A stretch of 64,000 bases of DNA from Sacculina carcini (taxonomy: Eukaryota; Arthropoda; Thecostraca; Sacculinidae): positions 4,553,849 to 4,617,848 of the forward strand of contig OU696584.1 in NCBI GenBank assembly GCA_916048095.2, read 5' to 3'. The position numbers and the translations under genes are program-made. Every line of letters starts with the position of its first letter. Position 1 is the first letter of the stretch. The notes beneath the pieces were generated by a model. That model searched no databases and was not told the DNA's origin. It saw nothing but the letters and a program-made list of their open reading frames with translations. Positions 3,085 through 52,589 of this stretch are shown here, piece by piece.

Positions 3085-3408
3085 TGTAAGTTGACAAAAC
3101 AAAAACTGAAAAAGATATATTAAAAGACAGGCGCGCGTGGGACAGCGACGTCCCACGCGCGCCTACAAGACAACACCGCACAGCAAACACGCCCGAACAC
3201 GACTCCTGCACCACACTGCCGCTCGTCTCAGCTCGTACCCGTCTCCTCTCGCCTGCAAGATGACACCGCTGCAGCACTTACACCATTCCGCACAGACACG
3301 CATACACACATACGCACATACACTTTGCTGAATCAACATTGCTATACATAGATACATAGAACGCCGCTCTGACGCAACACACACACTCATCACATATACA
3401 ACACCACA
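3085..3408 (-). repeat. E1 3' LTR
   Basis: 324 bp. On the minus strand it is preceded by a G-rich purine tract (about 3409-3420), the expected plus-strand primer. It pairs with 4446-4769, and the TSD sits at 3080-3084. It contains a GC-rich palindrome centred near 3147 (GGCGCGCGTGGGAC and its inverse). Confidence 0.9.
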
Positions 3409-3427
3409 CGCCCCCGTGATATATAAA

Positions 3428-3979
3428 TCATAACTCATAATCTTGTAACCACACCGGCGGTCTCCTGATCCTAGACGACCTCCGAAGAACGTCACTACGA
3501 GACTGCTCGTCATTAGTTTCTCTTCCATTTTCTTCATCATCGCTCACTAACGGCAATCGCCCCCCAGCCTGATCCGCATCATCCTCGACCGCATCACCAC
3601 TTGACCGGAGGAAGGACACGTCATTTGCGCTTTCTTCATTGACAGGGCGCAAGTCCAACACATGACGCGGCATCCTATCCACCTCCACGTTCACGTCAGA
3701 TACAACACCAGTCACACGTCCGGGTAACCATCGGGAAGTACAGCGAGCATTCACAGGCTTCACGACAACCTTTTGGCCCACGACATACCTGCATGACTTC
3801 TCATACTCAAATTTCGAGGGTTGCGACCTTGGATGTCGCCATTTGTAGGTGTGTAAAGCAGCACTCTGGGTCGAATCATTGCTAGCAGCGTCTTCTCCAT
3901 CAACGGCCGCCGCGACAGGGCACAACACCTTGGCCCCAGCACCCACCGTGCTCCCGCCGTCACCTGTGCTCTTCAGCAC
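3428..3979 (-). pseudogene. E1 integrase C-terminal tail
   Basis: Frame of up to 183 residues. A segment YVVGQKVVVKP..RWLPGRVTGVVSDVNVEVD..RHVLDLRP matches the C-terminal DNA-binding domain region of the E2 and E3 integrases. It ends in RRSSRIRRPPVWLQDYEL, like the pol ends of E2 and E7. The catalytic core is absent. The upstream GC-rich part (about 3980-4430) has no recognisable domain. Confidence 0.75.
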
Positions 3980-4433
3980 CCTGTCGCAGCCGGCCGTAAT
4001 CCACCTTCCACAAATGCCGTCTTGCCTTCCGGGTCACGACGCCTCCTGCCGCTTCAGCAGCTCCTTGCCTCCTTGAGCACCAGCAGCTTCCCCCGACTGC
4101 TCTGCGACGTAGCCAGCACCAAGGCAGGCGAGACGACGACGACGACGACGAGCAACCTCGGCGCAGCTCACCGGCTGCCTGCTTGCCGGCACCATGCTCC
4201 ACTGTCGTCCCCCTGCACACCCTCTTGCCATGCCGCCGAACACCACCTCTATCTTCCACTTTGCCACTGATGCCCAAGGGTCAGTACCACCGCCCCTGCT
4301 GAAGTCATTGTCAATTCATCAATTCCATGACACTATCCCGAAGCAACTACAACAATCTACACTAAACTACACTGTTCCGAAGCAAAATCAAACCGCCTAT
4401 CTATAAAAACCACAAAAACAAATCACTGAAAAG

Positions 4434-4445
4434 GCCGAAATAGCT
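4434..4445 (-). promoter_or_regulatory. E1 primer-binding site matching a tRNA-Phe 5' end
   Basis: Directly after the 5' LTR on the minus strand is AGCTATTTCGGC, the reverse complement of GCCGAAATAGCT, which is how animal tRNA-Phe(GAA) genes begin (bases 1-12). No TGG, the usual start of a site complementary to a tRNA 3' CCA end, is present. The LTR edge is fixed by the TSD. Confidence 0.75.
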
Positions 4446-4769
4446 TGTAAGTTGACAAAACAAAAACTGAAAAAGATATATTAAAAGACAGGCGCGCGTG
4501 GGACAGCGACGTCCCACGCGCGCCTACAAGACAACACCGCACAGCAAACACGCCCGAACACGACTCCTGCACCGCACTGCCGCTCGTCTCAGCTCGTACC
4601 CGTCTCCTCTCGCCTGCAAGATGACACCGCTGCAGCACTTACACCATTCCGCACAGACACGCATACACACATACGCACATACACTTTGCTGAATCAACAT
4701 TGCTGTACATAGATACATACAACGCCGCTCTGACGCAACACACACACTCATCACATATACAACACCACA
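4446..4769 (-). repeat. E1 5' LTR
   Basis: 324 bp, nearly identical to 3085-3408 with a handful of substitutions. The second copy of the TTTAC duplication follows at 4770-4774. Confidence 0.9.
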
Positions 4770-6101: not shown

Positions 6102-6403
6102 TGTAGTATGTGTATGCATGTGTGTGTTTGTGTGTGTGAATTGGTGCATGCATGGTGTGTGTGCATCATCGGGTTGTGCAACATGAGCTCACTGTTGCTG
6201 GGGTGTATGTGCGCGTGCAGCAGTTGACTGGTGTATAATTCCAGGTATGTCCTGTCCTTGCAAGTGTGATCGGTGATGACGCATGGTTCGTTGCTGGTGT
6301 GTAATGTAGTGGGAGTGTGGGTGGGTTGGTTGTAGGCTGTCGTTGTGTGTGGTCGTTGTGTCTGAATAAAATGTTTTTGCGTTGTGCTCGTGCGTCTTTT
6401 ACA
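6102..6403 (+). repeat. E2 5' LTR
   Basis: 302 bp starting TGTAGTATG, with an AATAAA at about 6365 (inside TGAATAAAATG). It differs from the 3' LTR by a few substitutions and the length of a TG tract. Confidence 0.9.
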
Positions 6404-6415
6404 AGCTATTTCGGC
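6404..6415 (+). promoter_or_regulatory. E2 primer-binding site matching a tRNA-Phe 5' end
   Basis: AGCTATTTCGGC starts at the first base after the LTR. It is identical to the E1 site although the two elements have different LTRs. It is the reverse complement of tRNA-Phe bases 1-12. Confidence 0.75.
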
Positions 6416-6416
6416 G

Positions 6417-7400
6417 TGTCAGATTTGTCAGTCGATCGGACCGGCCCCAGTCAAATGGAGACGCGGCGATTTGAGTGTGCCAGAACTGTGGCAGAGAGTC
6501 GCTGTTGACGTGACGCATTTCAAGGGACACGTGTATCTCACCATCATTGACTGTGGTCCATCGAGATTTGCGTTGTGGCGACACCTGCCTGCTGAGTCGA
6601 CCAATCACGTTGTTCGAGAATCGGACGCAGTCTTCTTCGAACGCGGTGCTCCACGTGAAATACTTTCAGTCAACGGCACGGTTTTCCGCCGTCACGAGTT
6701 CGCTGCGTTCGCTGCCAGGTGGAGCGTTCGTCTGAGGTTTCGTTGTGCCTATTAACCATCTGGCAATGGTATCGTGGAGCGGTGTCACCGCAGCATAAAA
6801 ACCACAGCAGCGAGAAAGCAATGTTCGGTGCAGGAGGCTGTGCACATTTATAACATCTCACCAAAAGATGATGTTAGATCCACCACAGCTCCGGCTAACA
6901 TCATTCATGGATACACAGTACGCGTGAGGAACATTGACCCTGAGCCCGATGTGGAAGCGAACGAGGTGAGGTGTCGCTACCAAGTGGGTGATGAGGTGTG
7001 GGTAAAACCCGCCGACGCGCGCTGCGCCAGCCAGTATTTACAAGGAGTTGTCACGGCAATCATCTCCGAACAAGCTGTGGATGTTGACGGCATGACGAGA
7101 CACGTGCGGGATCTGCGATTTAGAGGTCGCCCAGGTGTTTGCAGAGTTGGCAACAACTTAGCTGTTCAAGAGGAGCTGACAGTGCCGTCGTAGAATCCAG
7201 CTCAGGCGAGTGACGAACTCTTGGTTTGTTCTGTTGCGGATCAGCGACTTCAGCGTGATGATACGTCGCCGCCAGCATCAGATGAACAGCAGGAGGTTGT
7301 CGTGGACGGACTCATCGGGAGTGAGATCAACGAGGGCGGCCCAAGAACATCGACCCGGGCTCGCAGGCCACCTGCGTGGTTGAACAGTTATGAGCAGTGA
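6417..7400 (+). pseudogene. E2 integrase fragment
   Basis: Begins at the zinc-domain CQIC and continues through the core: first Asp in VAVDVTHFKG, a changed second-Asp region (ILSVNGTVF where E3 has LLDND), and the Glu in NGIVERCHR. The C-terminal domain (YQVGDEVWVKP) and a RRPPAWLNSYEQ end follow. In-frame stops at 6753-6755 (TAA, where E6 has the Tyr-Glu-Pro codons) and 7191-7193 (TAG) break it. Loss of the second catalytic Asp and the two stops make it non-functional. Confidence 0.85.
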
Positions 7401-7448
7401 TGTGTGTTACGACGTGTGCATGTATGATCCTTGAAGATCAGGGGGAAG

Positions 7449-7756
7449 TGTAGTATGTGTATGCATGTGTGTGTGTGTGTGTGTGTGTGTGAATTGGTGC
7501 ATGCATGGTGTGTGTGCATCATCGGGTTGTGCAACATGAGCTCACTGTTGCTGGGGTGTATGTGCGCGTGCAGCAGTTGACTGGTGTATAATTCCAGGTA
7601 TGTCCTGTCCCTGCAAGTGTGATCGGTGATGGCGCATGGTTCATTGCTGGTGTGTAATGTCGTGGGAGTGTGGGTGGGTTGGTTGTAGGTTGTCGTTGTG
7701 TGTGATCGTTGTGTCTGAATAAAGTGTTTTTGCGTTGTGCTCGTGCGTCTTTTACA
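7449..7756 (+). repeat. E2 3' LTR
   Basis: 308 bp, matching 6102-6403. The TSD AAACC follows at 7757-7761. Confidence 0.9.
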
Positions 7757-8402: not shown

Positions 8403-8417
8403 TGGCGCAGCCGACAG
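8403..8417 (+). promoter_or_regulatory. G1 primer-binding site, tRNA-Ser type
   Basis: TGGCGCAGCCGACAG follows the LTR directly. It is complementary to a 3' end ending in GGCTGCGCCA, like animal tRNA-Ser. This is the normal 3'-CCA type and contrasts with E1-E4. The gag ATG overlaps the LTR/PBS junction. Confidence 0.6.
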
Positions 8418-8501
8418 CGGCAACGGATGATCAAATTTCTAAGCTAACTAGTCTGGTCGCACAATTGGTGGACCAAAACATTCAAAGAGAACGAATGTTA
8501 G

Positions 8502-8877
8502 TGTATTATGTTTATTGTGTATTGCATGGTATTGTATCTTGTACTATATATAATTGTGTGTGCGTGCATGTGTATTTGTGTGCGTACGTGGGAGTGTGAT
8601 TTTGTGTACGGTGTTGTGTCCGCGCGCGGAGGTAGCTGCGTCACACAAGCGCGAGCGATGAGTGCATGCATGCGCGGGTGGTATCCGCCCTGAGTCAACG
8701 GTCGCTCGTGCATGCTGGGCAGTGCGTTACTGGTGAAGTGAGAGTGTGGTGTTTGTGCAGTAGTTTAGAGTGTTGTTCGGTGGAGAGAGTAGTATTTAGT
8801 GCATTGTGTTGCGGTGTGATCGTGTGGAATTGTGCTTTCTTGTTCTTTTTTATTTTTCGTGCTTACATTCAAATACA
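8502..8877 (+). repeat. E3 5' LTR
   Basis: 376 bp. I found no differences from 12494-12869 on reading, so insertion was very recent. Confidence 0.93.
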
Positions 8878-8889
8878 AGCTAACCGGCC
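8878..8889 (+). promoter_or_regulatory. E3 primer-binding site matching a tRNA-Ile 5' end
   Basis: AGCTAACCGGCC starts at the first base after the LTR. It is the reverse complement of GGCCGGTTAGCT, the first 12 bases of animal tRNA-Ile(AAU). As in E1 and E2, complementarity ends exactly at tRNA base 12, the LTR boundary. Confidence 0.75.
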
Positions 8890-8898
8890 CTTCGAAAA

Positions 8899-9600
8899 AT
8901 GGAGTCTTCATGTGGTTTCGACGCTCGCGTGATACCAGAATTTGATGGTCAGAGTGACATTGTGGAATGGTGGACTCGCACGGAGATGATGTGTCAGCTC
9001 AAAGGCGTCGATGTGATGAGCGTAGTGCCACTACGTCTCTCAAAAGGTGCGTTTGTTGTGTGGTCCCAACTGCCGGATGAAATTCGCCGTTGCGCGAAAG
9101 GAACTCGCAGCGCTTTGTTCTCGGCGTTTGGAGTGGACAGATTCCGTGCATACGCCCTGTTCACCAGTCGTCGTCTGCAAGAAGGTGAGTCGCCTGACGT
9201 ATATTTGGCAGACTTAAAAAAGCTTGCAGTTTCATTCGGTGGCGTATCCGATAATCTGCTGATATGTGCATTTGTAAATGGCCTACCCGAGCACGTGGCG
9301 ACCAGTATTCGTGCAAGCACAGTGTCAGAGTCTCTGTCGCTGAGTGATATTACGAGCAGAACTCGCATGGTGTTACAAACGACAAAAAGCCCGCCGAACT
9401 GTCTAGCTGCCAATGCCGGGTCGCTTTCACCCCGAAAATGCTATATTTGCAATCAGACTGGTCACTTGAGTAGAGAGTGCCCCAAAAGGAAATATCGGAT
9501 GCGATGTTACAATTGTTCCAAGTTGGGTCACATGGCGAAGGACTGTCAGGGAAACGAGGAAGGAGAGGGTTCGTCAGCGCCAGCACCCTCTCCTCAGTGA
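8899..9600 (+). CDS. gag: E3 Gag (nucleocapsid with two zinc knuckles)
   Basis: 234 codons from MESSCGFDARV to a TGA at 9598-9600. The N-terminal part is a retrotransposon Gag fold candidate (segment ALFTSRRLQEGESPDVYLADLKKL resembles the conserved Gag central motif). Near residues 180-215 are two CCHC knuckles, CYICNQTGHLSREC and CYNCSKLGHMAKDC, which bind RNA. The ATG is the first after the PBS and is about 10 bases past it. The end overlaps pol in the -1 frame. Confidence 0.9.
   Translation: MESSCGFDARVIPEFDGQSDIVEWWTRTEMMCQLKGVDVMSVVPLRLSKGAFVVWSQLPDEIRRCAKGTRSALFSAFGVDRFRAYALFTSRRLQEGESPDVYLADLKKLAVSFGGVSDNLLICAFVNGLPEHVATSIRASTVSESLSLSDITSRTRMVLQTTKSPPNCLAANAGSLSPRKCYICNQTGHLSRECPKRKYRMRCYNCSKLGHMAKDCQGNEEGEGSSAPAPSPQ
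9549..9594 (+). promoter_or_regulatory. -1 ribosomal frameshift signal (GGGAAAC plus hairpin)
   Basis: In the gag frame the heptamer reads G GGA AAC (9549-9555), a canonical X XXY YYZ slippery site. Five bases later AGGAGAGGGT (9561-9570) pairs perfectly with ACCCTCTCCT (9585-9594) across a 14-base loop. Slipping one base back enters the pol frame. The gag stop follows directly after the stem. Confidence 0.85.
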
Positions 9601-12470
9601 GCAATGAGGCGCTTCCTTCAGTCTCTGTGTTTATTGATCAACGTGAGTCTTGTGTGCTTGTTGATACCGGTTGTTCTCGCTGTATTGTGTGGAGCGGTGT
9701 TTGTAAAACATGGACACCAGTAACGACTCATGTGAATACTTTGGGTGGCATGAGCTTTGACTGTTCGGGTGTTGGTGAATGTCGTGTGAGTGTCGAGAAA
9801 CAGTCAGTTGTTGTAAAAGCACTTGTTGTGCAGCACAAGCCGATGGGATATGATGCGATTCTGGGAATGAACGCCATATCAGCGCTGGGGGGTGTTTGCG
9901 TACGTGCTGACGGTGGGGTGCATTTTCAAGTGAGTACCAAGGCTGCATACTGTGCTGCGGCTGGTGATATTCTTGAGTCAAAACCTGGACATGAGGCACG
10001 GTTCGATGCAGCTAAAAACATGTGGACTTGCAAGTGGAAGTGGCTTGACGACCACGAGCCGCAGCGTTTGACAAACGAAACTGCACAATATCATGTGAGG
10101 CAACACGCCAAGGAGGCATTCGACAGAGAGATCAATGAGTGGATCAGCAACAAATGGTTGATTCCCTATGATGAGAGTGTACATGGGCCTGCCCGCTGTT
10201 TGATTCCACTGATGGCAGTAACCCAAAAGAACAAGAACAAAGTGAGACCGGTCCTCGATTTCCGAGAATTAAATAAACACATTGACACTCGTTCTGCAGA
10301 TGCTGACGTATGCAATGAGAAGCTGAGGGAATGGCGGATGAAGGGAGACAATGTGTTTATCATGGACCTCAAGAAAGCCTACCTGCAGATATCAGTTGAC
10401 AGTTCATTGTGGCCTTTCCAGACGGTGAAGTTCAATGGTGTGTTGTACTGCTTGACCAGGCTTGGATTCGGGTTGAGTGAGGCGCCCATGATCATGCATA
10501 CGGTGGTCGACTCGGTGATGGCACAGAACGACCAGATAAGACGTGGGACATCGGCATATGTTGACGATGTTCTCATTGACGGAAACATTGTGTCACCCGA
10601 AGCGGTGAAGGAGCACTTTGCCAAGTACGGCCTTGAATCGAAAGAGATTGAAAAGCTCTCTGACGGAACCCGAGTGCTCGGCTTACACGTGTTTTCGTCA
10701 GAGTCTGGCAAGCTGATGTGGAAAAGGGACAATGCCGTGGGTGAGTGTCCGGAACAGCTCACGAGACGAGTCGTGTTTTCACTATGCAGCACTGTAGTGT
10801 CGCATTATCCTGTCGGTGGCTGGCTGCGAGTTGCCGCTTCGTACATCAAGCGACTTGCATCCGAAGCGACAAACAGCTGGGACGAACCGATTTGTGACTC
10901 GGCACTCCAGAGTCATGTGAACGAAGTGATGTCGAGACTACAGCATAGCGATCCCGTGAGAGGCGTGTGGAAGATCGATGGTGATTCGGCGAATGTATGG
11001 GTGGACGCCAGCAACATAGCCATTGGTGCGTTAGTTGAGGTAAATGGCGAGACAGTGGAGGATGCTTGCTGGTTGAGAAGGGACAGCCACCACATAAACC
11101 TTAGTGAGCTAGAGGCCGTGATAAAGGGGCTTGGACTGGCGATCAAGCTAAAATTTCGAAAAATTCGGCTTTTCACAGATTCATCCACGGTGCATGTATG
11201 GCTCAGGGGACTCCTAACGGCAAAGGAGCGTGTCAGGACCACTGCCTGTAGTGAGTTGCTGATCAGGCGCCGACTAGAGATCATCGGTGGATTGTTGGAC
11301 GAGTACGACCTGACGGTTGAAGTAATGAAGGTGGCGTCTGAGAAGAATAAAGCAGATTGCCTGACTCGTGTGCCTGGTCACTGGTTGAAACAGGACAAAT
11401 CAGTGTGTGCCGCAGGTGCTGAACCGACTGACGTGCGTTCTCGCATCAGGCAGATTCACCACGACGCCGGACATCCGGGCATCCACCGAACGCGGTACTT
11501 TTGCCGGAGGAAAAAGCTTTACGTGAGCAAGCGGGAAGTCGCAGATGTTGTGAGGTCGTGTGACATCTGCAATTCGATTTGCCCGGCGTCAGTGAAATGG
11601 AGACACGGGAAACTGAGCGTGAATCAAAACTGGCACCGACTGGCAGCAGATTTTGTGCATGTGCGTAATTTATTGTATGTGTCTGTCATCGATTGTGGTC
11701 CTTCGAGGTTTTCTCTCTGGCGCAAGGTTCGCAGTCGCAGCAGCGATGAAGTGGCGGACATTTTCGATGATATTTTTAGTGAGCGTGGACCCCCAAATGA
11801 GATACTTCTGGACAACGACACGTCTTTTCGTGGACAGTCTTTTGTGCGGGCGATGGAACGTTGGGGTGTGAGCATTCGCTATCGGTGTGCTTTTCGCCCA
11901 GAAGGAAACGGCATAGCAGAGAGGTCGCATCGGACTGTCAAGACCATTGTGGCGAGGAAACAGTGCAGCGTGAGAGAGGCTGTGATGCTGCACAATTTGA
12001 CGCCAATGGATGACGCCGGTCGCAGACCTGTTGATGGTGTGTATCGATACAGAGTACGAATGCGTGATGAACTCCCGCGACAGCGCAGCACATCTGTTCG
12101 TGGCTGCGATTATGAGGTCGGCGATCCTGTCTGGGTGAGGCAGCGCGGAGACCGGTGTGATGCTGTCGGTCGCAGGGGTACCGTCACAAGTGTCGTGTCA
12201 GACCTTGTTGTCGCCGTCGATGGCATCAACAGGCACGTGGGTGATGTCAGACCACGGGCGGAGACGGAGAACGGTGGCGGCACGAACGGATTGGACGAGG
12301 CGAGCGGTGACGTGGCGGACGACGGCGAGCCTGCCGTCATGGTGTACGGCGAGAGGACTGCCGGGACTGATCCGGCGAGTAGCGGTCAGCAGCAGACGCG
12401 ACCACAGCGACAGAGTCAGCGTCCGGCGCGGTTCAATGATTATGTTGTGTATAATTCTAATCGGACATAG
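9555..12470 (+). CDS. pol: E3 Pol: protease, reverse transcriptase, RNase H, integrase
   Basis: Open in the -1 frame relative to gag; the frame itself opens at 9474. Order: aspartic protease with VDTGCSRC (near 9660), reverse transcriptase (VLDFRELN, then YVDD at 10557-10568), RNase H (VWVDAS, LSELEA, LFTDSS), a KADCLTRVP hinge, integrase zinc domain (HHDAGHPG..CDIC) and catalytic core with Asp in ADFVHV, Asp in LLDNDTS and Glu in GIAERS at DD35E spacing. A C-terminal domain (YEVGDPVWVRQ) follows. All catalytic acids are present and there is no stop. Order PR-RT-RH-IN is Ty3/gypsy-like, but the RT/RNase H is divergent from G1 and E5 and resembles E6. Confidence 0.9.
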   Translation, partial: RGRRGFVSASTLSSVSNEALPSVSVFIDQRESCVLVDTGCSRCIVWSGVCKTWTPVTTHVNTLGGMSFDCSGVGECRVSVEKQSVVVKALVVQHKPMGYDAILGMNAISALGGVCVRADGGVHFQVSTKAAYCAAAGDILESKPGHEARFDAAKNMWTCKWKWLDDHEPQRLTNETAQYHVRQHAKEAFDREINEWISNKWLIPYDESVHGPARCLIPLMAVTQKNKNKVRPVLDFRELNKHIDTRSADADVCNEKLREWRMKGDNVFIMDLKKAYLQISVDSSLWPFQTVKFNGVLYCLTRLGFGLSEAPMIMHTVVDSVMAQNDQIRRGTSAYVDDVLIDGNIVSPEAVKEHFAKYGLESKEIEKLSDGTRVLGLHVFSSESGKLMWKRDNAVGECPEQLTRRVVFSLCSTVVSHYPVGGWLRVAASYIKRLASEATNSWDEPICDSALQSHVNEVMSRLQHSDPVRGVWKIDGDSANVWVDASNIAIGALVEVNGETVEDACWLRRDSHHINLSELEAVIKGLGLAIKLKFRKIRLFTDSSTVHVWLRGLLTAKERVRTTACSELLIRRRLEIIGGLLDEYDLTVEVMKVASEKNKADCLTRVPGHWLKQDKSVCAAGAEPTDVRSRIRQIHHDAGHPGIHRTRYFCRRKKLYVSKREVADVVRSCDICNSICPASVKWRHGKLSVNQNWHRLAADFVHVRNLLYVSVIDCGPSRFSLWRKVRSRSSDEVADIFDDIFSERGPPNEILLDNDTSFRGQSFVRAMERWGVSIRYRCAFRPEGNGIAERSHRTVKTIVARKQCSVREAVMLHNLTPMDDAGRRPVDGVYRYRVRMRDELPRQRSTSVRGCDYEVGDPVWVRQRGDRCDAVGRRGTVTSVVSDLVVAVDGINRHVGDVRPRAETENGGGTNGLDEASGDVADDGEPAVMVYGERTAGTDPASSGQQQTRPQRQSQRPARFNDYVVYNSNRT

Positions 12471-12493: not shown

Positions 12494-12869
12494 TGTATTA
12501 TGTTTATTGTGTATTGCATGGTATTGTATCTTGTACTATATATAATTGTGTGTGCGTGCATGTGTATTTGTGTGCGTACGTGGGAGTGTGATTTTGTGTA
12601 CGGTGTTGTGTCCGCGCGCGGAGGTAGCTGCGTCACACAAGCGCGAGCGATGAGTGCATGCATGCGCGGGTGGTATCCGCCCTGAGTCAACGGTCGCTCG
12701 TGCATGCTGGGCAGTGCGTTACTGGTGAAGTGAGAGTGTGGTGTTTGTGCAGTAGTTTAGAGTGTTGTTCGGTGGAGAGAGTAGTATTTAGTGCATTGTG
12801 TTGCGGTGTGATCGTGTGGAATTGTGCTTTCTTGTTCTTTTTTATTTTTCGTGCTTACATTCAAATACA
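12494..12869 (+). repeat. E3 3' LTR
   Basis: 376 bp, followed by the GTTAG duplication, after which G1 gag resumes. Confidence 0.93.
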
Positions 12870-15800
12870 GTTAGAGCAACAACTTCAGCAAGCAAGGGCT
12901 AGTGATTCAAATCGCCAAAATCAAAATAGCTCTGAATCTCAGAATAAGACGGTGAAATTACCTGCGAATTCCACTCCAGTGTTGCATGCAGATTGTTCAT
13001 TGCGCGATTTTGATACGTGGAGGTACAAAATAATGGGCTATGTCGCGTTGTCAAATCTAGACAAGCTCCCGCCAAAAGAACAACAGGCAGTGTTGCACGC
13101 GTCAGTCGATGAGGACTGGTCGCGTATATTGCGATTCAGTCTGAACATCAGTCAGGGTTCCGACATGGATCAGTGCATCACTCAGATGGAACAGCACTTA
13201 CGAGCACAACGCAATATTGTAATCGACCGGAGGGAATTTTATCTCAGATCTCAACAGCCCGGTGAATCTTTCGATACGTTTTTGTGTGCAGTAAAAGAGA
13301 TACAGTCTTTCTGCGATTTTTGCACGGTCTGCAGTGATGATAGACTTCGTGACAAAATTATGATGGGGACAGGTGATGAACAGGCACTGAGTCACATGCT
13401 TCGCGAGAAAGACATGAATTTGATGAGGGCGATCGATATATGTCGTTCATCTGAGGCAGCAAAAACAAACTCTTCGCAAATTAAGGGCGAATCGTGCAGA
13501 GCGGTATCCCACAATCACCTGAAAAAGGCGGATGCCAGTCATAGCGACAGGCAAAATTGCACCAAGTGTGGATCGAAATGCAGCGGTGGTCAGAAATGTC
13601 CCGCATACGGCAAGGCCTGTCGTATATGCGGAAAAAACGGACATTATGCGAAGGTATGTCGTAGCAGTAACCGCAGAGGATCCCACAAAACCAACAGACG
13701 TCAACGGGTTGTTCAGGCCGACTCAAACGAACAAGTACGACGCATTCGTGTGGGTGACGTACGACAGAAGCAAAAAGGAAAGCGAGCGCCCGCGATCAGC
13801 ATCAACGTGAAGCCTAGTCAAGGACGGTCGGTCGATATACGCTGGATCGCTGACACTGGCGCTGAATGCAGTGTCATAAATTCTGCTGTGGCAGCCAAGT
13901 TGGGAATCAAAACGACTTCTTTGACTACATGTGCAGCGCGCCTATGTTCGGCGGATGGCGGTCGTCTTCACTGCTCCGGCACATGCGAGGCGACTCTGCG
14001 ATTGGGAGACGCAACGTGTATCACAACATTGTACGTGGTTCCTGCCGCAACAGATGCTCTCCTATCGTGGTCTGACGCAGTTGACCTGCGTATTATTCAC
14101 CGCGCCTTTCCTCAGCAGCTGCCGGAGTATCCCTCAAGCAACCAGGCAGTATGTACCAACTCTACCTGCGTCAGGGCTGGGAAGATGCAGTCGGTGTCAG
14201 TCTCAAAAGGCGGTAATTATACAGCATCTGCCGCCGCGTTGTCACGCAACAACAACGAGGGATGTCCGGCCGGAACACCATCGAACGACGACAACCAGCG
14301 CAGAGAAATGTCCGACACCGTGTCTGAAAAACGAGAGATTAAAAGCTCGAGACCAATATGGCCGCATGCACGAGAGCCAACAACTATGGAGCGGCGCCAG
14401 CATGCGAATGCATTGCGGCTCGCTTTTCCTGATGTGTTCAACGAAGATGGTCCGTTGAGGTGCATGAAGGGGCCTCCCATGCGCATTTCGTTAGCCGAAA
14501 ATGCACGCGCAACGAGCGTTTACGCACCGCGGAACATTCCAGTCGGGTACCGCGAGCACATCAAGCGTCATCTAGACGAACTAATTAAACAGGATGTCAT
14601 CGAACATATCACCCATCCGACCGAATGGTGCCACCCTGTAGTACCAGTACCGAAACGCAGCAGTGACGGAAAAATTATCGGATGTCGTCTGACCATCGAC
14701 TTAACTAAATTGAACCGGTACGTGCTTCGGCCTGCATATCCTGTCAGGGTCCCGCTTGATGCAGTGTCTAGCATCACACCCGGATGTCGTTACTTGTCGA
14801 CATTGGACGCGAAACATGGGTATTTTCAGATTGCCATACATGAAAATGACCGTGATTTGACGTGTTTCATGACGCCGTGGGGTCGTTACCGATTGAAACG
14901 TGCTCCAATGGGTCTCATCTCCAGCGGTGACGTGTATAATCAGCGCTGTGATATGGCTCTGGCCGGCCTGGTCAACATGAATAAAATTGTTGATGATATT
15001 CTCGTGTACGACACTACATACGACGAACACTTGAAAAATGTGTGGAACGTTCTCCAGCGATGTCGAGAACATGGCATCACATTGAACAAGCAAAAATTCA
15101 CATTCGCTGAATCTCGCGTACAATATTGTGGTTTCGTGATCGACAAAGATGGATATTGTGTGGATGATAAGAAACTGGAGGCAATTTCCAAGTTTCCCCG
15201 TCCATCGAACGTCAGGGAGGTCAGATCGTTTCTTGGTTTGGCTAACCAGTTATCTCAATTTTCAACTGAGATAGCCAGCACCACAGCACCGTTGAGGCAT
15301 TTACTGCGAAAGGATGTTGAATGGCGTTGGGACGAGGCCATACACACACCGGCGTTTGAGGCAACGAAAAGATTCCTGACGTCACCTCCTGTATTGGATT
15401 TCTACGAGCCCTCGAGACAGACGGTGGTTGAGACTGATGCTGCTCGTTTGCACGGTCTCGGTTTTGTTGTACGTCAAATGGACGAACAGCAGCGCTGGAG
15501 ACTGGTTCAGTGTGGTTCGCGCGCCCTTACGGAAACTGAAACCAGGTACGCTGCCGTGGAACAGGAAATGTTGGCAGTCGTATGGGCCTGCCACAGAGCA
15601 AATAATTATCTTGCTGGCGCCAAGAAATTCGTCATCATGACAGACCACAAACCACTCTTGCCCATACTGAACACAAAAAGTATCGCGGAAATAAGCAACC
15701 CGCGCTTGCAGCGCATGAGAACCAAGCTATCGCACTTGAGGTTTGAAGCCGTTTGGAAAGCAGGCAAGGAACACGTAATTGCGGATTGCCTGTCCCGATC

Positions 15801-19652: not shown

Positions 19653-19934
19653 TGCTACAGGCCGATTAGCTTGTAAAAGCAGACATGAAGAACAAACACA
19701 AAATATGTATTAGAAGACGGGCGCGCGGGGGCATTGCAGCCCCACGCGCGCCCACAAGAACCCGCACACCGACACACACTCCACGACGCTCACACAACGA
19801 CTCCCGAAACATGACTCCACCACGTGGCACGCGCAGTCAGCAAACCAGACAATCCACCATTCAAATGCACGCTCATATACACATACAGCACCTTTACTCG
19901 CACTCATACAAAACAGTGATTCATACACAATATC
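19653..19934 (-). repeat. E4 left LTR (interrupted at 19934 by E5)
   Basis: Starts TGCTACA, then a tRNA-Ile-like GGCCGATTAGCT, then TGTAAAAGCAGACATG. The remaining bases lie after E5 at 27599-27603. It matches 28292-28578. Confidence 0.75.
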
Positions 19935-20133: not shown

Positions 20134-20144
20134 TGGCGACGAGG
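20134..20144 (+). promoter_or_regulatory. E5 primer-binding site, tRNA-Ser(GCU) type
   Basis: TGGCGACGAGG two bases after the LTR is complementary to a tRNA 3' end ending CCTCGTCGCCA, as in animal tRNA-Ser(GCU). Conventional 3'-end priming, as expected for Mag-like elements. Confidence 0.6.
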
Positions 20145-22260: not shown

Positions 22261-22400
22261 GACGAGCAAAAACGCAACCAAGAAGAATACACAGAACGCC
22301 ACGAGAACAACTCAACCGCGCACTAACACAATTCCTGTACCACCACAGCTCACAACACACACAACCACTCCTCGTATGACACTGCCCTTCTTACCAGCAA
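22261..22400 (-). repeat. E6 left direct repeat
   Basis: CGAGCAAAAACGCAACCAAG through CTTCTTACCA, repeated at 24698-24837 with few changes. Possibly part of an LTR. Confidence 0.7.
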
Positions 22401-24714
22401 TTACCGTGTGGCTCGTAGGCACAACGATACATGGGGTTGATTTTCCACCCTGCTAAGAAGCATCGAAATTCCCGACTGCAAAATGCTGTTCCGTTGTCAA
22501 GCAGCACTTCTCGTGGCGCTCCTCGTTCCAAGGATACTTCTTGCAATTGATCTACTATATGCTTGGAGTCCTCTCGCCACAACGCTCTCCAAATTGCATA
22601 ACGCGATGGACCGCAATCAATAATAGACAAATACGATGTCCCGCGGTAGTGAGTGACGTCCATTGCCAGTCGCTGCCAAACGGTTTTCACAGTCAGGCTG
22701 CCTCGCTCCCACTTCACAGGGGCGGGGTCAATAGAACGGCACGAGTCGCATGATGTCACTACATTGTGTGCTAGTCTTCTTGTCGCGAAGCGGTTCCTCC
22801 TTTTGGCAAAGTACTGCGTTCTCCGTACTCCCGGATGTCCTGCCAGCTGATGCACCTCTTTCATCTCTGCCTCACTCATGCTCTCCCGTGGAGTGCCGCT
22901 GCAACACACATTCGATTCCTCTGAAGCATTCAACCACCTGAGAGGCACTCGGGTCAAAACATCGGCGATGTTTTCTTTCGATGGTACGTGGACAACTTCT
23001 ATTGCCAGTCCTAGCTCCTCCCTCACACATTTGAGAGTTTCGAGTCGTCTCCTAATCAATAATTCTCCAATAGCCTTGGTTTTTACTCTTACGGCTCCGG
23101 TAAGCACATCTTTCATCCATCGAAAAACAGTGAACGAATCGGTTTTTACTGTTATATTTTCCATATTCCACGCTGCAGCCAAATTCAGCCCTTTTAGAGC
23201 AGCATCCATTTCCGCCATGTTAATATGCTGACTGTCCTTTCGTAGCCAACATGCGTCCTCTACCACGTCGCCGTTTATTTCAAGCACCACCCCCAGCGCC
23301 AACTGGCTTGCATCTACCCAAACATTCATCTGGTTTCCTTTCACACTCCACGTTCCTCTCGCAGCGTCTTCGTTCTTAACTCTATCTGCAAACTGTTTCA
23401 ATACACTCAAACATCTCTGATCCACAATCTCGTCATCCCAACCTTGACTTGATTCATTTGCCAGTCTCTTTACAAATGAAGCCGCGACTCGCATCCATCC
23501 TCCCACTGGTAGGTGCCCAATCACCTGCCCGCAGAAACTGAAAACTTTCCTCCGAGTTATCGGGCCTCTTGACTCTTCTATGATGTTGTCTCTTGTCCAT
23601 GACAACTTGCCATTGTCGCGTTGAAGACTCAACCCCAATACGCGACAAGTCGGATTGGCCCGCGAGGCCGCATTGCACACCAGGCCAAACTGATTAAAAA
23701 TGTTCGCTCACCTTTTCCGCAGTTACTCCCGACTCGTCCACAATGATGTCGTCAATATACGACGAAGCTGAACCCTGGATTACGTCGTCTTGAGCCAGCA
23801 CATACTCGACGATAACCTTCATAATCATTGGTGCAACACTGAGTCCAAATCCGAGCCGTGTCAAACAGTATCTCTTCCCTTGTACAATCACCGTTTGATA
23901 ACTCCAGAGCTCGGGGTCAACATGTATCTTCAGGTATGCCTTTCTCAAATCCAGTAGTGCAATTTTGTCACCTTTTCTTCGCCAATCCCGCAACTTTTGA
24001 TGGCAAACATCAGCTTCTGCAGTGTGCAGCTCGATATAGTGGTTGAGTTGACGAAAGTCCATAACTGGGCGAACTTTGGACTTGTTTTTCTGATTTACCA
24101 CCATCAGTGGTATAAGTCCCTTTGCTGGTCCATGGATCTTCGAGTCGTGGTCTATTAACCAGCCCTCACTGATCCAATGCTGAATTTCATCTTTGTATGC
24201 TTCCCGAAGGTTGTGAGAAATGTTGTATTCAGCCGTCTGATTAGTCAGAATCTCTGGTTGAGTGGCCCATTTCCATTTGACGCTCCAAAAATTTCCCTCT
24301 TTGTCGTATGTGGCAGAGAAATCGCTGTGCTCTATCGAGAGACATTGGGTTTCCGCCACCGCCATAGCGTCCTCTGTGCGGCTGACACACCATGCCTGTG
24401 AATCTAGTCCAAAGGAGGGATGTAGGTCGACATCCAACGATAATCCCCCCAACGATTTCACGCAGTCCAATCCAAGTACGACGTCCATACCAACAGGCCT
24501 GTGGTTCACCACTAGGGCGTCGATGTCTATTCTTTTTGCACCGTCCACTTCAACGTCTACGCGACACTCTCCTTCACACGCCATCTCGTCACCACTGATA
24601 GTTACCAATGTTGTATCAGTTCTTCTTAAACGGCTATCACATAAACGTTTGTATACTAGGCTCCTAGTACAACCAGTGTCCAGCATTGCACGAATTGCAC
24701 GAGCAAAAACGCAA
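22391..24714 (-). pseudogene. pol: E6 Pol fragment (protease to integrase core)
   Basis: From about 24700 down: protease MLDTGCTRSLV, reverse transcriptase with VMDFRQLN and SSYIDDIIVD, then a one-base insertion in an A/T run at 23696-23700 that shifts the frame. RNase H (VWVDASQ, MAEMDA, VKTDSF), ADVLTRVP, integrase zinc domain (HQLAGHPG..CDSC) and core (AMDVTHYRG, LLDNGTAF) follow. It ends at EPHGN near 22400, before the catalytic Glu. Closely related to E3 in every domain. Confidence 0.88.
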
Positions 24715-24837
24715 CCAAGAAGAATACACAGAACGCCACGAGAACAACTCAACCGCGCACTAACACAATTCCTGTACCACCACAGCTCACAACACACACA
24801 ACCACTCCTCGTATGGCACTGCCCTTCTTACCAACAA
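24698..24837 (-). repeat. E6 right direct repeat
   Basis: Second copy of the 140-bp repeat. The pol frame starts immediately to its left (AIRAMLDTG on the minus strand). Confidence 0.7.
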
Positions 24838-28279: not shown

Positions 28280-28310
28280 GCCGAAATAGCTTGTTACAGG
28301 CCGGTTAGCT
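28280..28310 (-). promoter_or_regulatory. E4 double tRNA-5'-end site (Phe and Ile)
   Basis: Plus-strand order: GCCGAAATAGCT (28280-28291, tRNA-Phe 1-12), TGTTACA (28292-28298), GGCCGGTTAGCT (28299-28310, tRNA-Ile 1-12), then LTR core TGTAAAAG. Read on the minus strand, the LTR core ends ACA, then the Ile-type site, then a 7-base TGTAACA, then the Phe-type site. Confidence 0.7.
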
Positions 28311-34307: not shown

Positions 34308-35816
<1,509 letters not shown>

Positions 35817-37688: not shown

Positions 37689-40640
37689 TCAGAGAGAGGC
37701 AAAAGGAGTCAAGGAATGAGTCACGGGATCAAAGGAAATTTCGACAAGATGTTTACGTAGAGAAGAGGTAAAAGATCGATACGTGAGCGAGGAGGTGATA
37801 TGAGAAGGGAGCGAGTTATATAATCGAGGACCGTAGAACGAGAACGATTTAGAAGACCAGGCAGATTCATTGAGGGCGCGAGGACAGCATAGAGGAGCAG
37901 AATGACGGGAAGTGGGATTAGAAGAGGGATAGAGCAGATCAGAAAGATATAAAGGTTGATTAGGAGCATGTAAGAGTTTGAATATTATGCAGCAGATTTT
38001 GAAGTGAATGCGCGATTTAATAGGAAGCCAACGGAATTGAAACAGAAAAGGAGAAGTATGGCGACAGAAGATAGGATGCAAAACAAAACGACAGGACTGA
38101 TTCATTACGCGCTGAAGAATTTTTAAAGAATAATTAGGACAGCTGAAGTGGAGTGAGTTGCAGTAGTCGAGCCTGGAGAAGATAAGAGAATGAATAAGCT
38201 TGATTGCAGAGGGCTGATCGAGACAGGGACGGATGGGATAAAGCGAGCGAAGAATCAAGCGACAAGTGCGAGCTGTAGAAAGGATATTGGTTGAGAAGGA
38301 AAGGGAAGAGTCAAAAATAACACCGAGATTTTTAACAGTCACTGAAAGAGACAAGGGGAGGAAAGGAGGAGCAATACGAGGAGGATGAAGAGCGATAAAT
38401 TCAGATTTAGAAGTGTTCAAGAGGAGGCGACGTGAGGAGGTCCAGGTCGAGATAGCAGAAAGTACGTCAGACAAGGTATTAGGATGCGAGAGAGAGCAAG
38501 GGAGATAGAATTGGATATCGTCTGCATAAATATGGAAAGGAATGGAGTAGCGCCTAAGGATGGGACAAAGAGAGGACATGTAGACATTGAAAAGGAGAGG
38601 ACCAAGAATAGAGCCTTGAGGAACACCGGACTTAAGAGGGAGCACAGTGGAAACGGAGGAATTGAACTTAACAGAAAAAGTGCGACCATGCAAGTAAGAA
38701 CGAAGTAGTGAGAGAGCGGAATGCGAGACACCGAGATGGAGGAGGTCATCGATGAGAATAGAATGATCAACCAAGTCAAAGGCAGAGCTCATATCAAGTA
38801 GAACTAGAAGAACAGAATGACGATAAGAGAAGGAGGAAAGAATACCTTGGGAGACAGAAATGAGAACGGATTCAGTAGAATGACCAGGGCGGAAACCGGA
38901 TTGGTGAGAGTCAAGAGCATTGCAGACATAAGGGGATAACTGAGAGAAAATTGCAGATTCGAGGAGTTTGGAGGAAAAGCTGAGGAGGGAGATAGGACGA
39001 TAGTTACTACATAAAGAAGGATCGAGAGAAGGTTTTTTGAGGATAGGATGTACATGGGCGTGCTTGTCGGCAAGAAAATCACCGTGCAAGAAAGAGGAGT
39101 TGACTAAGTGAAGTAGGTAAGGAATCAAGGAGTTGAAGGATGGAACAATAACTCGGAAATTAATGGGATCAGCAAGAGAGGAAACGAATTTACATGTGGA
39201 CAGGAGAGAAAGGAAGTCGGAGAGGACCAGTTGAGAAAAAGACGAGAGCTGGCAGTGGGATGTAGTACGAGAGAGAGGGACATTCACGAGAGGGATTTTA
39301 GATTGCGCAGATACAATTTTGTTCACGAAGTAGGAAGAGAGTTCGTCAGCAGTGAGAGAAGAACTAGCAGAGGGAGGACGGAGACCGCAGAGAGAGTTGA
39401 GTATATTCCAGAGGGCTTTGGGAGAGCGAGATAGAGAGGAAAGGCGTGAGGAGTAGTAAGCTTGCCTAGCAGAGGATAGGGAGGAAATATAGTTAGAACG
39501 AGCAGAGCAAAAGGCCGACCAGTCATCCGCGAGCCGAGTGCGTCGCCAGATACGCTCCAAAGCACGGAGTCGGCGCTTAAGACAAGTAAGAGAGGGACAG
39601 CTCCAAGGAGAAACACGAGGACGGTGAGAGCGGAACGAGAGAGGAAAAATGAGGTTATTGATATCAGACAAAGTGGAGTATAAGAAGGGATAAATTGAAG
39701 ACGGAGGGAGTGAGTGAAGAACATGCAAAGGGAAATGGTTAGATAGAAGATTGTGAAACGTAAGAGGATTAAAATTCCTGAAATTTCTGAAAAGGGTGAA
39801 TGCTGGTGGAGGATTAGAGGATTTACACGCCGGCAATGACGTAAGGATAAGACTGTGGTCAGAGAAGAGAGGATCAGGAGGAAGAACAATGACTTCGGAT
39901 GGCGGTACATCAGAAGAAAGAACTGGAGAAGGGAAAAGGACTAGATCAAGAGAATGACCCGATGTGTGAGTGGGAGAGGAAACAGGGGAGACTAGACCAT
40001 GAGAATCAAGAATAGAAATGAAAGTCGATGCGAAGGAGGAGCGAGAGGGACAGTCAACCCAAAAGTTAAAGTCACCAAGGATAATGAAACGGCTGGAGAA
40101 AGAAAAAACTATAGCGTCAAGGAGCGAGGAGAATTCAGAGAAGAAAAGAGGAGTAGACCGGGGGTGATTATGCCGGTAGATAACGAGAATACAGAATTTA
40201 TGAGAGGAGCGACTTGATGACATACAGAGTGGAAGAAATTCGAAAGAAGAAGGAGGAGGAATGGGATCAGATAAGAGAGATATTGGAAGAGATTTGGAAA
40301 AGATGCAGCCCACTCCACCACCAGAGAATTTAGAATCAGAACGAGATTTGTGAAGAAAAGAAAAGTTAGAAGGAAGGTTAGCCATGAAAGATGGAATATC
40401 AGACTCAAATAGCCAGGTTTCGGCTAGGCAGAGAATTGAAAGGACATGAAAGCAGAGAAGGTGGTTAAGGTAGGTGAATTTGTTTCGACAAGATCTTATG
40501 TTAAGGAAACCGATAGAAAAAGATGAAGAAGAGCATGAAGAAGCAGCAGGTTGAACATCAGGTGAGGAGTTGGAAGAATGGTGAAAGGAAGGCGAGGGGG
40601 CAGAGGAACGGGACGACGGCGCGGATGGAAGGGAAGGTAG
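37689..40640 (-). CDS. N4 ORF2: endonuclease and reverse transcriptase
   Basis: Open from the codon after the ORF1 stop to 37689, about 983 codons. A Ser-rich linker is followed by an APE-type endonuclease (FLNIRS near 40505, AETW near 40420, ILGDFNFW near 40070, SDHSLI near 39860). The reverse transcriptase follows: NYRPIS near 39000, LDMSSAFDLVDH near 38790, SGVPQGSILGPLLFN near 38610, YADDIQF near 38520, with a thumb and C-terminal region ending SFDPVTHSLTPF. The first ATG is at 40385, already inside the endonuclease past AETW, so translation of a complete enzyme must start elsewhere, most simply by readthrough from ORF1. Confidence 0.9.
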   Translation of the reverse strand, partial: LPSLPSAPSSRSSAPSPSFHHSSNSSPDVQPAASSCSSSSFSIGFLNIRSCRNKFTYLNHLLCFHVLSILCLAETWLFESDIPSFMANLPSNFSFLHKSRSDSKFSGGGVGCIFSKSLPISLLSDPIPPPSSFEFLPLCMSSSRSSHKFCILVIYRHNHPRSTPLFFSEFSSLLDAIVFSFSSRFIILGDFNFWVDCPSRSSFASTFISILDSHGLVSPVSSPTHTSGHSLDLVLFPSPVLSSDVPPSEVIVLPPDPLFSDHSLILTSLPACKSSNPPPAFTLFRNFRNFNPLTFHNLLSNHFPLHVLHSLPPSSIYPFLYSTLSDINNLIFPLSFRSHRPRVSPWSCPSLTCLKRRLRALERIWRRTRLADDWSAFCSARSNYISSLSSARQAYYSSRLSSLSRSPKALWNILNSLCGLRPPSASSSLTADELSSYFVNKIVSAQSKIPLVNVPLSRTTSHCQLSSFSQLVLSDFLSLLSTCKFVSSLADPINFRVIVPSFNSLIPYLLHLVNSSFLHGDFLADKHAHVHPILKKPSLDPSLCSNYRPISLLSFSSKLLESAIFSQLSPYVCNALDSHQSGFRPGHSTESVLISVSQGILSSFSYRHSVLLVLLDMSSAFDLVDHSILIDDLLHLGVSHSALSLLRSYLHGRTFSVKFNSSVSTVLPLKSGVPQGSILGPLLFNVYMSSLCPILRRYSIPFHIYADDIQFYLPCSLSHPNTLSDVLSAISTWTSSRRLLLNTSKSEFIALHPPRIAPPFLPLSLSVTVKNLGVIFDSSLSFSTNILSTARTCRLILRSLYPIRPCLDQPSAIKLIHSLIFSRLDYCNSLHFSCPNYSLKILQRVMNQSCRFVLHPIFCRHTSPFLFQFRWLPIKSRIHFKICCIIFKLLHAPNQPLYLSDLLYPSSNPTSRHSAPLCCPRALNESAWSSKSFSFYGPRLYNSLPSHITSSLTYRSFTSSLRKHLVEISFDPVTHSLTPFASL

Positions 40641-49048: not shown

Positions 49049-49080
49049 ATCCTCAACTGTAATGAAACGCATATTGCATG

Positions 49081-49489
49081 TAACACTAAACCTCTTCAAA
49101 TTTGACTTTTTCATCACACTTATGCAAACTGATATTATTTCCATTCTCCAAGGTCTAAATGAACTAAATATGCCAGTTACTTTGATCTTGGACCTTGGCT
49201 ATGCCCGCCTCAAGAGCCATGTAGTTTTATTGTTGACGTTATTCAAAAACGCCGCAAAATCCGGGATATCATCTCTCTTTTTTCACTGTAGCTTCCCAGA
49301 GGATGATGCTATAGCACTGAAAGTGATACCAAATGAAAGCTAATAACATTTTCTTGCACATTGTGTCAAACGCATTCACACCTATGGAAATTTTTTAACT
49401 AATTTTAATGCACAAATATATATATTTTTATGTTTGGAAAGGATGACATTATATAATAAATTACTTTATCTTTAAATGTTACTCTTACT
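49081..49489 (+). repeat. Left long inverted repeat
   Basis: Includes CCTCTTCAAATTTGACTTTT and ACTTTGATCTTGGACCTTGG, whose inverses are at 52459-52474 and 52369-52388. Confidence 0.85.
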
Positions 49490-49619
49490 GCACATACATC
49501 ACATTTTACATAGAGGATTAGGTTTAAAACAATTTTGTTTTAACTCATTTCAGATTGTTTGTGAACTGTTGATATAATGACATCTGGAAGACCACTACGC
49601 AACTAGCCAGATTACTGCA

Positions 49620-50960
49620 CTCTACACTGGGATTAAAAACATTTAAAGGATGATCTTGGTGAAACAAACCCAGTAGAAAGTTTTGCTGTGCTCGTCTCTG
49701 GTGCTCCACAGTATGAAGAAGGGAAGCTGCTTGGTGTGCCCTTCATAGAAAGTTCTACAGGAATCCAGGAGTGCAATGCTACACTGGAGCTTATAGAAAC
49801 ATGGGGTCTCACAGACAACATTGTAGGCTTGGTATTTGATACTACAGCAAGCAACAGTGGCATCAACAAGGGTGCAGCAAAACTGATTGAAGAAAAACCA
49901 GACAAGCAAGTATCCTACTTCGCTTGTCGCCATCACATATCAGAGGTAATGATTGGAGGTGCATTGGAGGCTGTGTTCAGCAAGGTCAAGAGTCCTGACA
50001 ATCCAATCTTCATCAATGTGAGAGATAAGTGCGACAATTTGGATAAGCACTGCCCAAGAGTTATGGGCTTTGAGTTATGAGTTGAAGAAGACTTGAAACA
50101 GAATAAGACAATCGCAATTGCGGTCGTAAGCAATTTCCTTGAGGAAGCAAGTCCGAGGGCAGATTACAGAGAGGTGGCAGAGCTGTGCCTGATCCTCCTT
50201 GGTGAGGAACCACCTCGAGGTATCCACTGGACCAAGCCAGGTGCCATTCACCAGGTCCGCTGGATGGCCAGGAGCATTTACTGTATGAAGATGCTCATTT
50301 TTTCCAAGGAACTCAAATACAACAAGGACACTATCTTCAAGCTGGAGAGGATGAACAGGTTCCTGACGTTATTCTACACCAGCCACTGGGTGACCACCAC
50401 ATCTGCTGCTGACGCACCTATCCATGACAACCAGCTTATGAAGGACATGCTGCAATACAAGGACCATGACTATGAACTGGCGACCTCTGTTCTCAAGAAA
50501 ATGAACAACCAGCTCTGGTATCTCACCCAGGAACTGGTGCCATTCCCTTTGTTCAGCTCGCACGACAGCGTGCCCAAGTCTGCAAAAGAGAAGCTCGCAG
50601 TCAAGCTGTCAGAAAGAGATAAACCTGATAGCTACAGGAAAGGCAAGCCAGTGTTTCCTGTTATCAACAGAGCTACAGTTCTCACAGACTTGGTTGGGCC
50701 AGATTCTCACTTTCTGTTTGATGTTTTTGGGGTGGAATGTGACTGGCCCACTACTCCTGCTGACACCTGAGAATACAATGACAGCTACAGGAATGCACAG
50801 AAGTTTGTGAGGTGAGTGAAAGTGACCAATGATGTGGCTGAGAGAGGCGTGAAACTGATGAGCGACATCGCGACTCAGATCACAACTGATGCAGAGCAGA
50901 GAACTGCCTATTACAAGTTGTGGAGTACCACAGGAACAAAATTGGCAGTTTCAACAAAGC
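49620..50960 (+). pseudogene. Decayed transposase (family not named)
   Basis: One reading frame with in-frame stops at 50078-50080, 50768-50770 and near 50813. Visible motifs: LVFDTTASNSGINKGAAKLIE, YFACRHHISEV and, near the end, NDVAERGVKLMSD. A DTT, RHHxxE and ND(x)AERG arrangement like this occurs in DDE-type transposase-like proteins of several invertebrates, as far as I recall, but I cannot name the superfamily. Its place between long inverted repeats supports the transposase reading. Confidence 0.65.
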
Positions 50961-51177
50961 CACATTGAACAAGTGACAACACATGTATTAGTGACGTACT
51001 ATCTGGCAGTTTCGTACACAAAATTTGTGTAGTGCAGTGCTATCATACTATCACGTTGATTTTTAGTGTCCCATCTCAAGACAGACATAATTGTACACGT
51101 GTAACACATATGTATTTACCTGTAGTAAGATTAATTTGCATATCATTGTACTGTAATAACTTGCAATCAGAGCCGTT

Positions 51178-51438
51178 GCGAGGAATTATGCCCCCCCCCC
51201 CCCCCCCCCCGAAGGCAACACTTGGGGCCCCCATTATAAATATAGCACCAAATAATGAATGTATTTGTTATACATAATCACATAACACAAGCTCAGGTGA
51301 AAACATCTGAGCAAAAAGGTATAAGCTATACATATTAAATATGATAAATTTTATTATCATACGTGAAGCAACGGGGCCCCTCAACATTCGGGCCCCCTCC
51401 CGGCCGGGGGTATACGGGGTGCGGTTGCTACGGCTCTG
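51178..51438. mobile_element. hAT-type MITE (copy 1)
   Basis: 261 bp with TIR CAGAGCCGTTGC and inverse GCTACGGCTCTG, and a perfect 8-bp TSD CTTGCAAT at 51170-51177 and 51439-51446. Eight-bp duplications and CAGNG ends are hAT features. Contains a run of about 20 C near 51192. Confidence 0.85.
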
Positions 51439-51493
51439 CTTGCAATCACATTGTGTAATCATCCTTATAGTCACATTGTATAATTATCTTTAA

Positions 51494-52060: not shown

Positions 52061-52076
52061 TTAAGCTCTATAGACT

Positions 52077-52484: not shown

Positions 52485-52589
52485 ACACTTGCAATCACTC
52501 ACTTGCTTCACGCATTCAACTGAAGTGTCTTTTATTCATAGAAGATCCCAAATGTATGTCTGTCTGTTTAATGCATCCGAGCTGTTCTC

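Follow-up and report, generated by a model that had tools for sequence, protein, structure and literature searches.

Three types of primer are described for LTR elements: the 3′ ends of whole tRNAs, half tRNAs cut at the anticodon, and self-primers (PMC6317226, PMC10886601, PMC5371799, PMC10085805, PMC4600332; all papers are cited here from excerpts). Half tRNAs are used by copia, Ty5, some plant copia lineages and most fungal Helenus elements (same sources). A systematic survey of plants names these three types as the ones described to date (whole tRNA, half tRNA and self primer) and places the plant half-tRNA users in Ty1/copia only (PMC6317226). Some elements carry odd sequences where the primer-binding site (PBS) should be: the fungal GalEa elements have a conserved hairpin that matches no tRNA and FunCo1 has an internal tRNA-Lys site (PMC5445492), while in the Culex element cqgypsy_1 two tRNAs match head to head at the LTR end (PMC3286476). 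The crustacean elements in the excerpt of PMC3587641 have 3′-end sites. In the literature searched, which consisted of such partial texts, no description was found of an LTR-element primer site matching the 5′ end of a tRNA.

The window analysed here, a stretch of 64,000 nucleotides of the Sacculina carcini genome (contig OU696584.1), contains three LTR elements, E1, E2 and E3, that carry such a match. Directly behind the 5′ LTR, the predicted primer-binding site of E1 (4434..4445, minus strand) and that of E2 (6404..6415, plus strand) read AGCTATTTCGGC, the reverse complement of bases 1-12 of tRNA-Phe, and the predicted site of E3 (8878..8889, plus strand) reads AGCTAACCGGCC, the reverse complement of bases 1-12 of tRNA-Ile(AAU). 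The original prediction gave these letters and positions correctly. It also held that the 12-mers adjoin the TSD-defined ends of the 5′ LTRs, with pairing that stops at tRNA base 12, that is, at the LTR border; this is confirmed in all three elements and, as described below, genome-wide.

Elements primed by half tRNAs (copia, Ty5 and the plant Osser, Bryco, Gymco-II and Bianca) are among the closest in kind, as there too the primer is the 5′ part of a tRNA that has gained an internal 3′ end, and its site comes right after the LTR. The half-tRNA elements, however, have their cut in the anticodon region, whereas the sites of E1-E3 point to a cut after U12 and match bases 1-12 only, so that the complementarity to the anticodon arm which marks the half-tRNA (Hemivirus) type is not seen. 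Furthermore, plant half-tRNA users belong to Ty1/copia, as mentioned above, whereas the RT of E3 matches RVT_1 and its integrase comes after RNase H. Tf1 and the sushi chromoviruses offer another likeness, in that a longer RNA has its short 5′ end cut off (PMC10085805, PMC4600332), but that RNA is their own mRNA, whereas the primer of E1-E3 would come from a host tRNA and their LTRs lack a complement of the site. Ordinary tRNA 3′-end elements share with E1-E3 the LTR pair and a site at the LTR end or a few bases from it; their sites start with TGG and match the bases of the CCA end, which those of E1-E3 do not. The window itself provides two ordinary elements as internal controls, and the tRNA-Ser 3′-end sites claimed for them hold against this genome's own tRNA-Ser: the PBS of G1 (8403..8417, plus strand, TGGCGCAGCCGACAG) matches 15 nt at the 3′ end of tRNA-Ser(UGA), and that of E5 (20134..20144, plus strand, TGGCGACGAGG) matches 11 nt at the 3′ end of tRNA-Ser(GCU). 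The sites of GalEa, FunCo1 and cqgypsy_1 are odd like those of E1-E3, but none, as described in the excerpts, matches tRNA bases 1-12.

The sites of E1-E3 thus fit none of the three described types; they suggest a new form of priming by tRNA that may amount to a fourth type. The choice and preparation of the primer set the LTR border of these elements and their dependence on the host. If true, a 12-nt 5′ tRNA primer would form a bridge between the half-tRNA mode and the self-priming of Tf1. Some enzyme would then have to gauge 12 bp along a tRNA duplex, and searches for tRNA 3′-end sites would miss such elements.

The 5′ LTR of E3 (8502..8877, plus strand, terminating in ..TACA) is 100% identical to its 3′ LTR (12494..12869), which is preceded by a G-rich tract (AGGGGGA), and a TSD, GTTAG, stands at 8497-8501 and 12870-12874. 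The gag frame (8899..9600, plus strand), whose first ATG lies 9 nt after the PBS, encodes two CCHC zinc knuckles (PF00098). The pol frame (9474..12470 from stop to stop, plus strand) has the order protease, RT, DUF7047, RNase H, integrase; PF00078, PF23088, PF13456, PF17921 and PF00665 match above the Pfam cut-off and cover the last four, while the protease match is weak and below the cut-off (best E 0.005). E3 therefore has the protease, RT, RNase H and integrase of an LTR retrotransposon, the protease being below cut-off. By eye, the D, E, D, D positions known for RNase H are present in that domain. E1 (3085..4769, minus strand; LTRs 4769-4446 and 3408-3085; TSD GTAAA) is short and has no space for pol. 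E2 (6102..7756, plus strand; LTRs 6102-6403 and 7449-7756; TSD AAACC) is deleted but retains a piece of integrase, with a match at 6408-7124. All three have LTR pairs with TG..ACA ends, 5-bp TSDs and a G-rich tract preceding the 3′ LTR, and are LTR retrotransposons by their LTR pair, TG..CA ends and TSD; the TSDs were read by eye and used to trim the ends of the LTR pairs. The RVT_1 match and the pol order would fit Ty3/gypsy. Of 192 PDB matches of the RT, the 60 listed are retroviral RTs. The pol pieces of a second element of the DUF7047 clade lie at 22391..24827 (minus strand), and their RT groups with a Phe-site family (L260).

It had also been claimed that the host's tRNAs begin with the corresponding 12-mers. 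This stands for tRNA-Ile; for tRNA-Phe the gene was not found and nothing contradicts the claim, so that half of the match is indirect. The tRNA-Ile pattern GGCCGGTTAGCTCAGTTGG has 10 exact places in the genome, and five of the six stretches fetched were called tRNA-Ile(AAU) by ARAGORN, starting GGCCGGTTAGCT, although one call adds a base at either end; the remaining stretch measured only 43 bp. Since the tRNA-Ile genes of this genome begin with GGCCGGTTAGCT, the E3 site is exactly complementary to the first 12 bases of a host tRNA. Six of the 10 places are clustered inside 48 kb (C30:2047508-2095012).

Neither patterns covering the 5′ end, the anticodon arm, or the anticodon arm plus T loop of tRNA-Phe(GAA), nor BLAST with the human gene, found this gene in the searchable genome sequence, of which some stretches are N, so that absence is not implied; three of the pattern searches gave 0 places. 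Unlike tRNA-Phe, tRNA-Ile, -Lys, -Ser and others were recovered from the genome. Several candidates were rejected: a place on C4 does not read as a tRNA; of two further pattern places, one, whose sequence was fetched, is not a tRNA, and the other, on C22, lies 831 bp upstream of a pol match and is probably an altered element site; and six more places are, by eye, tRNA-Tyr anticodon arms. The Rfam tRNA profile scored 63 of 15,013 candidates, a number that does not amount to a tRNA census. As animals need tRNA-Phe, its gene must be absent from the searchable letters (unassembled or N) or too unlike the patterns. The Phe half of the match is accordingly made indirectly, through the animal tRNA-Phe start, which we take to be GCCGAAATAGCT, and through one relic (L111), which keeps the acceptor 3′ strand TTTCGGC and hence implies the 5′ strand GCCGAAA. 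Bases 8-12 of animal tRNA-Phe are usually TAGCT.

Two partial pieces of tRNA-Phe, both from its 3′ part and both beginning at base 38, were seen at L167 582-616 (C19:4480881-4480915) and L168 528-557 (C12:8527627-8527656). The former is enclosed by a 174-bp inverted repeat. Rearranged repeats that share stretches with the loci of these elements surround both pieces. Base 37 of tRNA-Phe is heavily modified, and the pieces start just after it; they may be cDNA of tRNA-Phe produced by aberrant reverse transcription.

The genome searched comprises 264 Mb in 43 contigs. The 15-base string ACAAGCTATTTCGGC (ACA followed by the Phe 12-mer) has 1,844 places, split 924 to 920 between the strands, and the 16-base string ACAAGCTAACCGGCCC (ACA, the Ile 12-mer and C) has 86, 48 and 38 on the two strands; the reversed control gave 0 in each case. 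Because of its one extra C the latter string undercounts, missing for instance L159 and L160, and Ile sites number at least 86. When 60 loci fetched with the patterns (30 Phe, 30 Ile) were grouped by LTR sequence, they fell into 16 clusters, 4 Ile and 12 Phe, whose LTR ends and leaders are mostly unlike with the exception of the site. A script recognized an LTR pair in nine of the 60 loci, six of which end exactly at the site, and found a TSD automatically in two. At one locus (L061 1501-1560), words of the LTR end recur within 40 bp behind a Phe-type site.

One objection would be that the 12-mer is an inherited sequence of some other function whose resemblance to tRNA starts is fortuitous. 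All families may share ancestry, as this objection would have it, but the site exists in two versions, one complementary in every base to the start of tRNA-Ile in this genome and the other to the start of animal tRNA-Phe; at least two switches appear on the RT tree discussed below, and the chance that a 12-mer equals any of an assumed 50 tRNA starts is about 3e-6 per family. We give this coincidence a vanishingly small probability.

A further sample was anchored on RT and hence chosen independently of the site. With a Hydra pol relative (P0100) as query, the search yielded 3,529 candidates, 81 of which received a score; 20 of the 81 were picked by hand across groups of frame length and identity, and the 651 bp upstream of each were inspected. 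Seventeen of these loci have an exact 12-mer (15 Phe, 2 Ile), following an LTR end that reads ACA in 16 and ATA in one. Copies with varied sequence after the LTR would have spoken against the original prediction; the copies do not vary, and at the remaining three loci (L161, L164 and L165) no element 5′ end was seen within the 651 bp fetched upstream. When those three stretches were compared by blastn with the rest of the upstream sequences, the only similarity was a 146-bp match, inverted, between L161 and L157. A site for another tRNA was rejected there: the best of 17 tRNA-start strings leaves 2, 4 and 3 mismatches, respectively, and none follows an LTR-like ACA. The RTs of two of these loci, L263 (for L161) and L262 (for L164), fall with L257/L261 and with L256, families whose other copies have the Phe site.

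The extent of the common block was measured as information per column over representatives of 21 families (all of the 16 clusters but L061, plus six RT-anchored families). Each was cut at an exact ACA plus 12-mer, a choice that by itself fixes the block. In the LTR, positions -14 to -8 hold 0.03-0.25 bits and -7 to -3 hold 0.34-0.88; behind base 12 there are 0.73 bits at +13, with some preference for A, and 0.03-0.31 at +14 to +27. The common block stops sharply after base 12, and this fall is what the alignment can tell; for the site itself the informative figure is the RT-anchored count.

A site shared by clusters with unlike LTRs also argues against self-priming in the manner of Tf1 and sushi, in which the 5′ end of the element's own RNA would pair with the site. 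Position and primer length are similar, the latter being reportedly 11 nt in Tf1. In E1-E3, nonetheless, self-priming is refuted, as their LTRs hold no complement of the PBS: the best match is 7 of 12 with a longest exact run of 4-5, below the shuffle mean in all three elements. We consider this explanation highly improbable.

The two site types are not separated on the RT tree (29 sequences, 91 columns, excluding 21 E3-family loci and hits spanning fewer than 60 residues). Among the Ile families, E3 and L259 stand together (0.958), while the Ile group L002 joins the Phe families L075 and L063 (0.969), to which L020 (Ile) is weakly added (0.626). Gag starts alike in L020 (Ile) and L088 (Phe). 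As Ile families occupy at least two places, the site would have undergone two switches or more, always ending up on the first 12 bases of the other tRNA, to judge from a tree that is short and has several weak nodes.

One such switch may be seen in E4 (minus strand), whose LTRs lie at about 28573-28292 and 19934-19653, with E5 between them. The end of its 5′ LTR reads TTTTACA-AGCTAACCGGCC-TGTAACA and is followed by AGCTATTTCGGC: an older site of tRNA-Ile type (28299..28310) is now within the 5′ LTR, and a predicted Phe site (28280..28291, tRNA-Phe bases 1-12) stands behind the shifted LTR end. The older site is also present in the 3′ LTR (19660..19671) with one base changed from AGCTAACCGGCC. 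The LTR end of E4 has thus shifted and now adjoins the new Phe site, which is what a site that fixes the start of the minus strand would bring about; in this one case the border moved with the site, so that the site sets the border, as a primer site must. E4 has no clear TSD and an uncertain upstream border; a second double site of this kind was not found among the sequences compared.

E4 also helps to weigh the idea that the 12-mer serves only to recruit or package the tRNA, the true primer being a conventional tRNA 3′ end or some other 3′ end. A precedent for additional contacts exists in the bipartite PBS of Ty1 and Ty3, which makes further contacts with the tRNA (PMC5371799). On the other hand, families with unlike sequences all have their LTR border at the site, in E4 the border followed the site, and no TGG-type site matching a tRNA 3′ end was found at the LTR border in E1-E3 and the other loci inspected. 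A second tRNA contact was looked for in E3 and rejected, nothing longer than 8 nt being complementary to tRNA-Ile elsewhere in the element. Pure recruitment is therefore given little credence.

The primer site may also be a point of exchange between families. L079 and L153 have the LTR of the non-autonomous family (in the last 100 bp, 92% to L064 and 88% to L084) but internal regions of other families (over 200 bp, 97.5% to L066 and 100% to L154), with the junction at the PBS, in keeping with strand transfer at a common primer site.

We therefore propose a pathway which we regard as probable: LTR elements of the DUF7047 clade (PR-RT-RNase H-IN) would start minus-strand DNA on the 5′ end of a host tRNA cut after U12. 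Pairing of the 12-base site with tRNA bases 1-12 would open the acceptor stem and the beginning of the D stem. A cut in the tRNA after U12 would follow, made most likely by the RNase H of the element, and the 3′ OH at U12 would prime strong-stop synthesis of U5. The position of this end is read from the LTR border: the minus strand can start only from a 3′ OH that is paired to the PBS at its first base, and as this base pairs with tRNA position 12, the primer should be a 12-nt fragment ending at U12. The simplest model would be that of Tf1, a paired RNA 5′ end cut off as primer, with a tRNA in place of the mRNA; RNase H is said to make the cut that yields the 11-nt self-primer of Tf1. Several points count against this pathway. 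U12 lies within the D stem, so that the tRNA must be opened, and cleavage of an RNA:RNA duplex by RNase H is unusual. The failure to find a tRNA-Phe gene in the searchable genome, the three RT-anchored loci of 20 that gave no site, and the fact that E4 is a single case with no clear TSD weigh on the same side. During plus-strand synthesis the 12-nt RNA would be copied up to its mature 5′ end, which would restore the exact 12-base site at each round. Ty1 and Ty3 reportedly inherit their PBS and copy no primer (PMC7472051, in the portion cited), so that copying-back is something we infer here. The tRNA-Phe and tRNA-Ile used both have A at position 9. As m1G9 blocks copying, such a block would be predicted to favour tRNAs with A at that position.

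The same anatomy would result if a ready-made 12-nt host 5′ tRNA fragment (5′ tRF) annealed and primed, the element making no cut. Animals do have 5′ tRNA fragments, according to review abstracts, but those described are longer, at 16-35 nt in the excerpt of PMC7515703, and the cut would need to fall at exactly 12 in each of two unlike tRNAs, which suggests that the duplex acts as the ruler. We find this origin of the primer unlikely and prefer cleavage of the paired tRNA by the element.

Pol proteins with DUF7047 (PF23088) from Trichuris, Trichinella, Hydra, decapods and barnacles resemble that of E3, a likeness by protein only, at 49-60% identity among the 120 matches listed of 602. Neither the viral_contigs nor the genome_contigs collection gave relatives by protein, and the site patterns in viral_contigs (33 stretches, fewer than the 86 of the reversed control) are attributable to chance. 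In the broadest form of the hypothesis, the whole of this old clade, known by protein from nematodes, crustaceans and Hydra, would constitute a fourth primer class that primes on 12-nt 5′ tRNA fragments cut from intact tRNA by its own RNase H, changing the host tRNA and keeping the cut after base 12; we put this at slightly short of an even chance.

Other features of the window can be mentioned. An open frame of 983 aa at 37689-40640 (minus strand) resembles, by eye, a non-LTR retrotransposon reverse transcriptase, with a diverged DNA match at 1-1374. At 49079-52485, a 410-bp inverted repeat, 91% identical, flanks frames at 49637-50770 and is perhaps a DNA transposon. Finally, one open frame of 502 aa at 34309-35816 (minus strand) encodes an NDR/tricornered kinase, whose best named match, among the matches listed, is from the barnacle Amphibalanus amphitrite; the match points to a thecostracan crustacean as the probable host. 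It has 87% identity and covers 91% of the query, while a jgi protein without a name reaches 90%.
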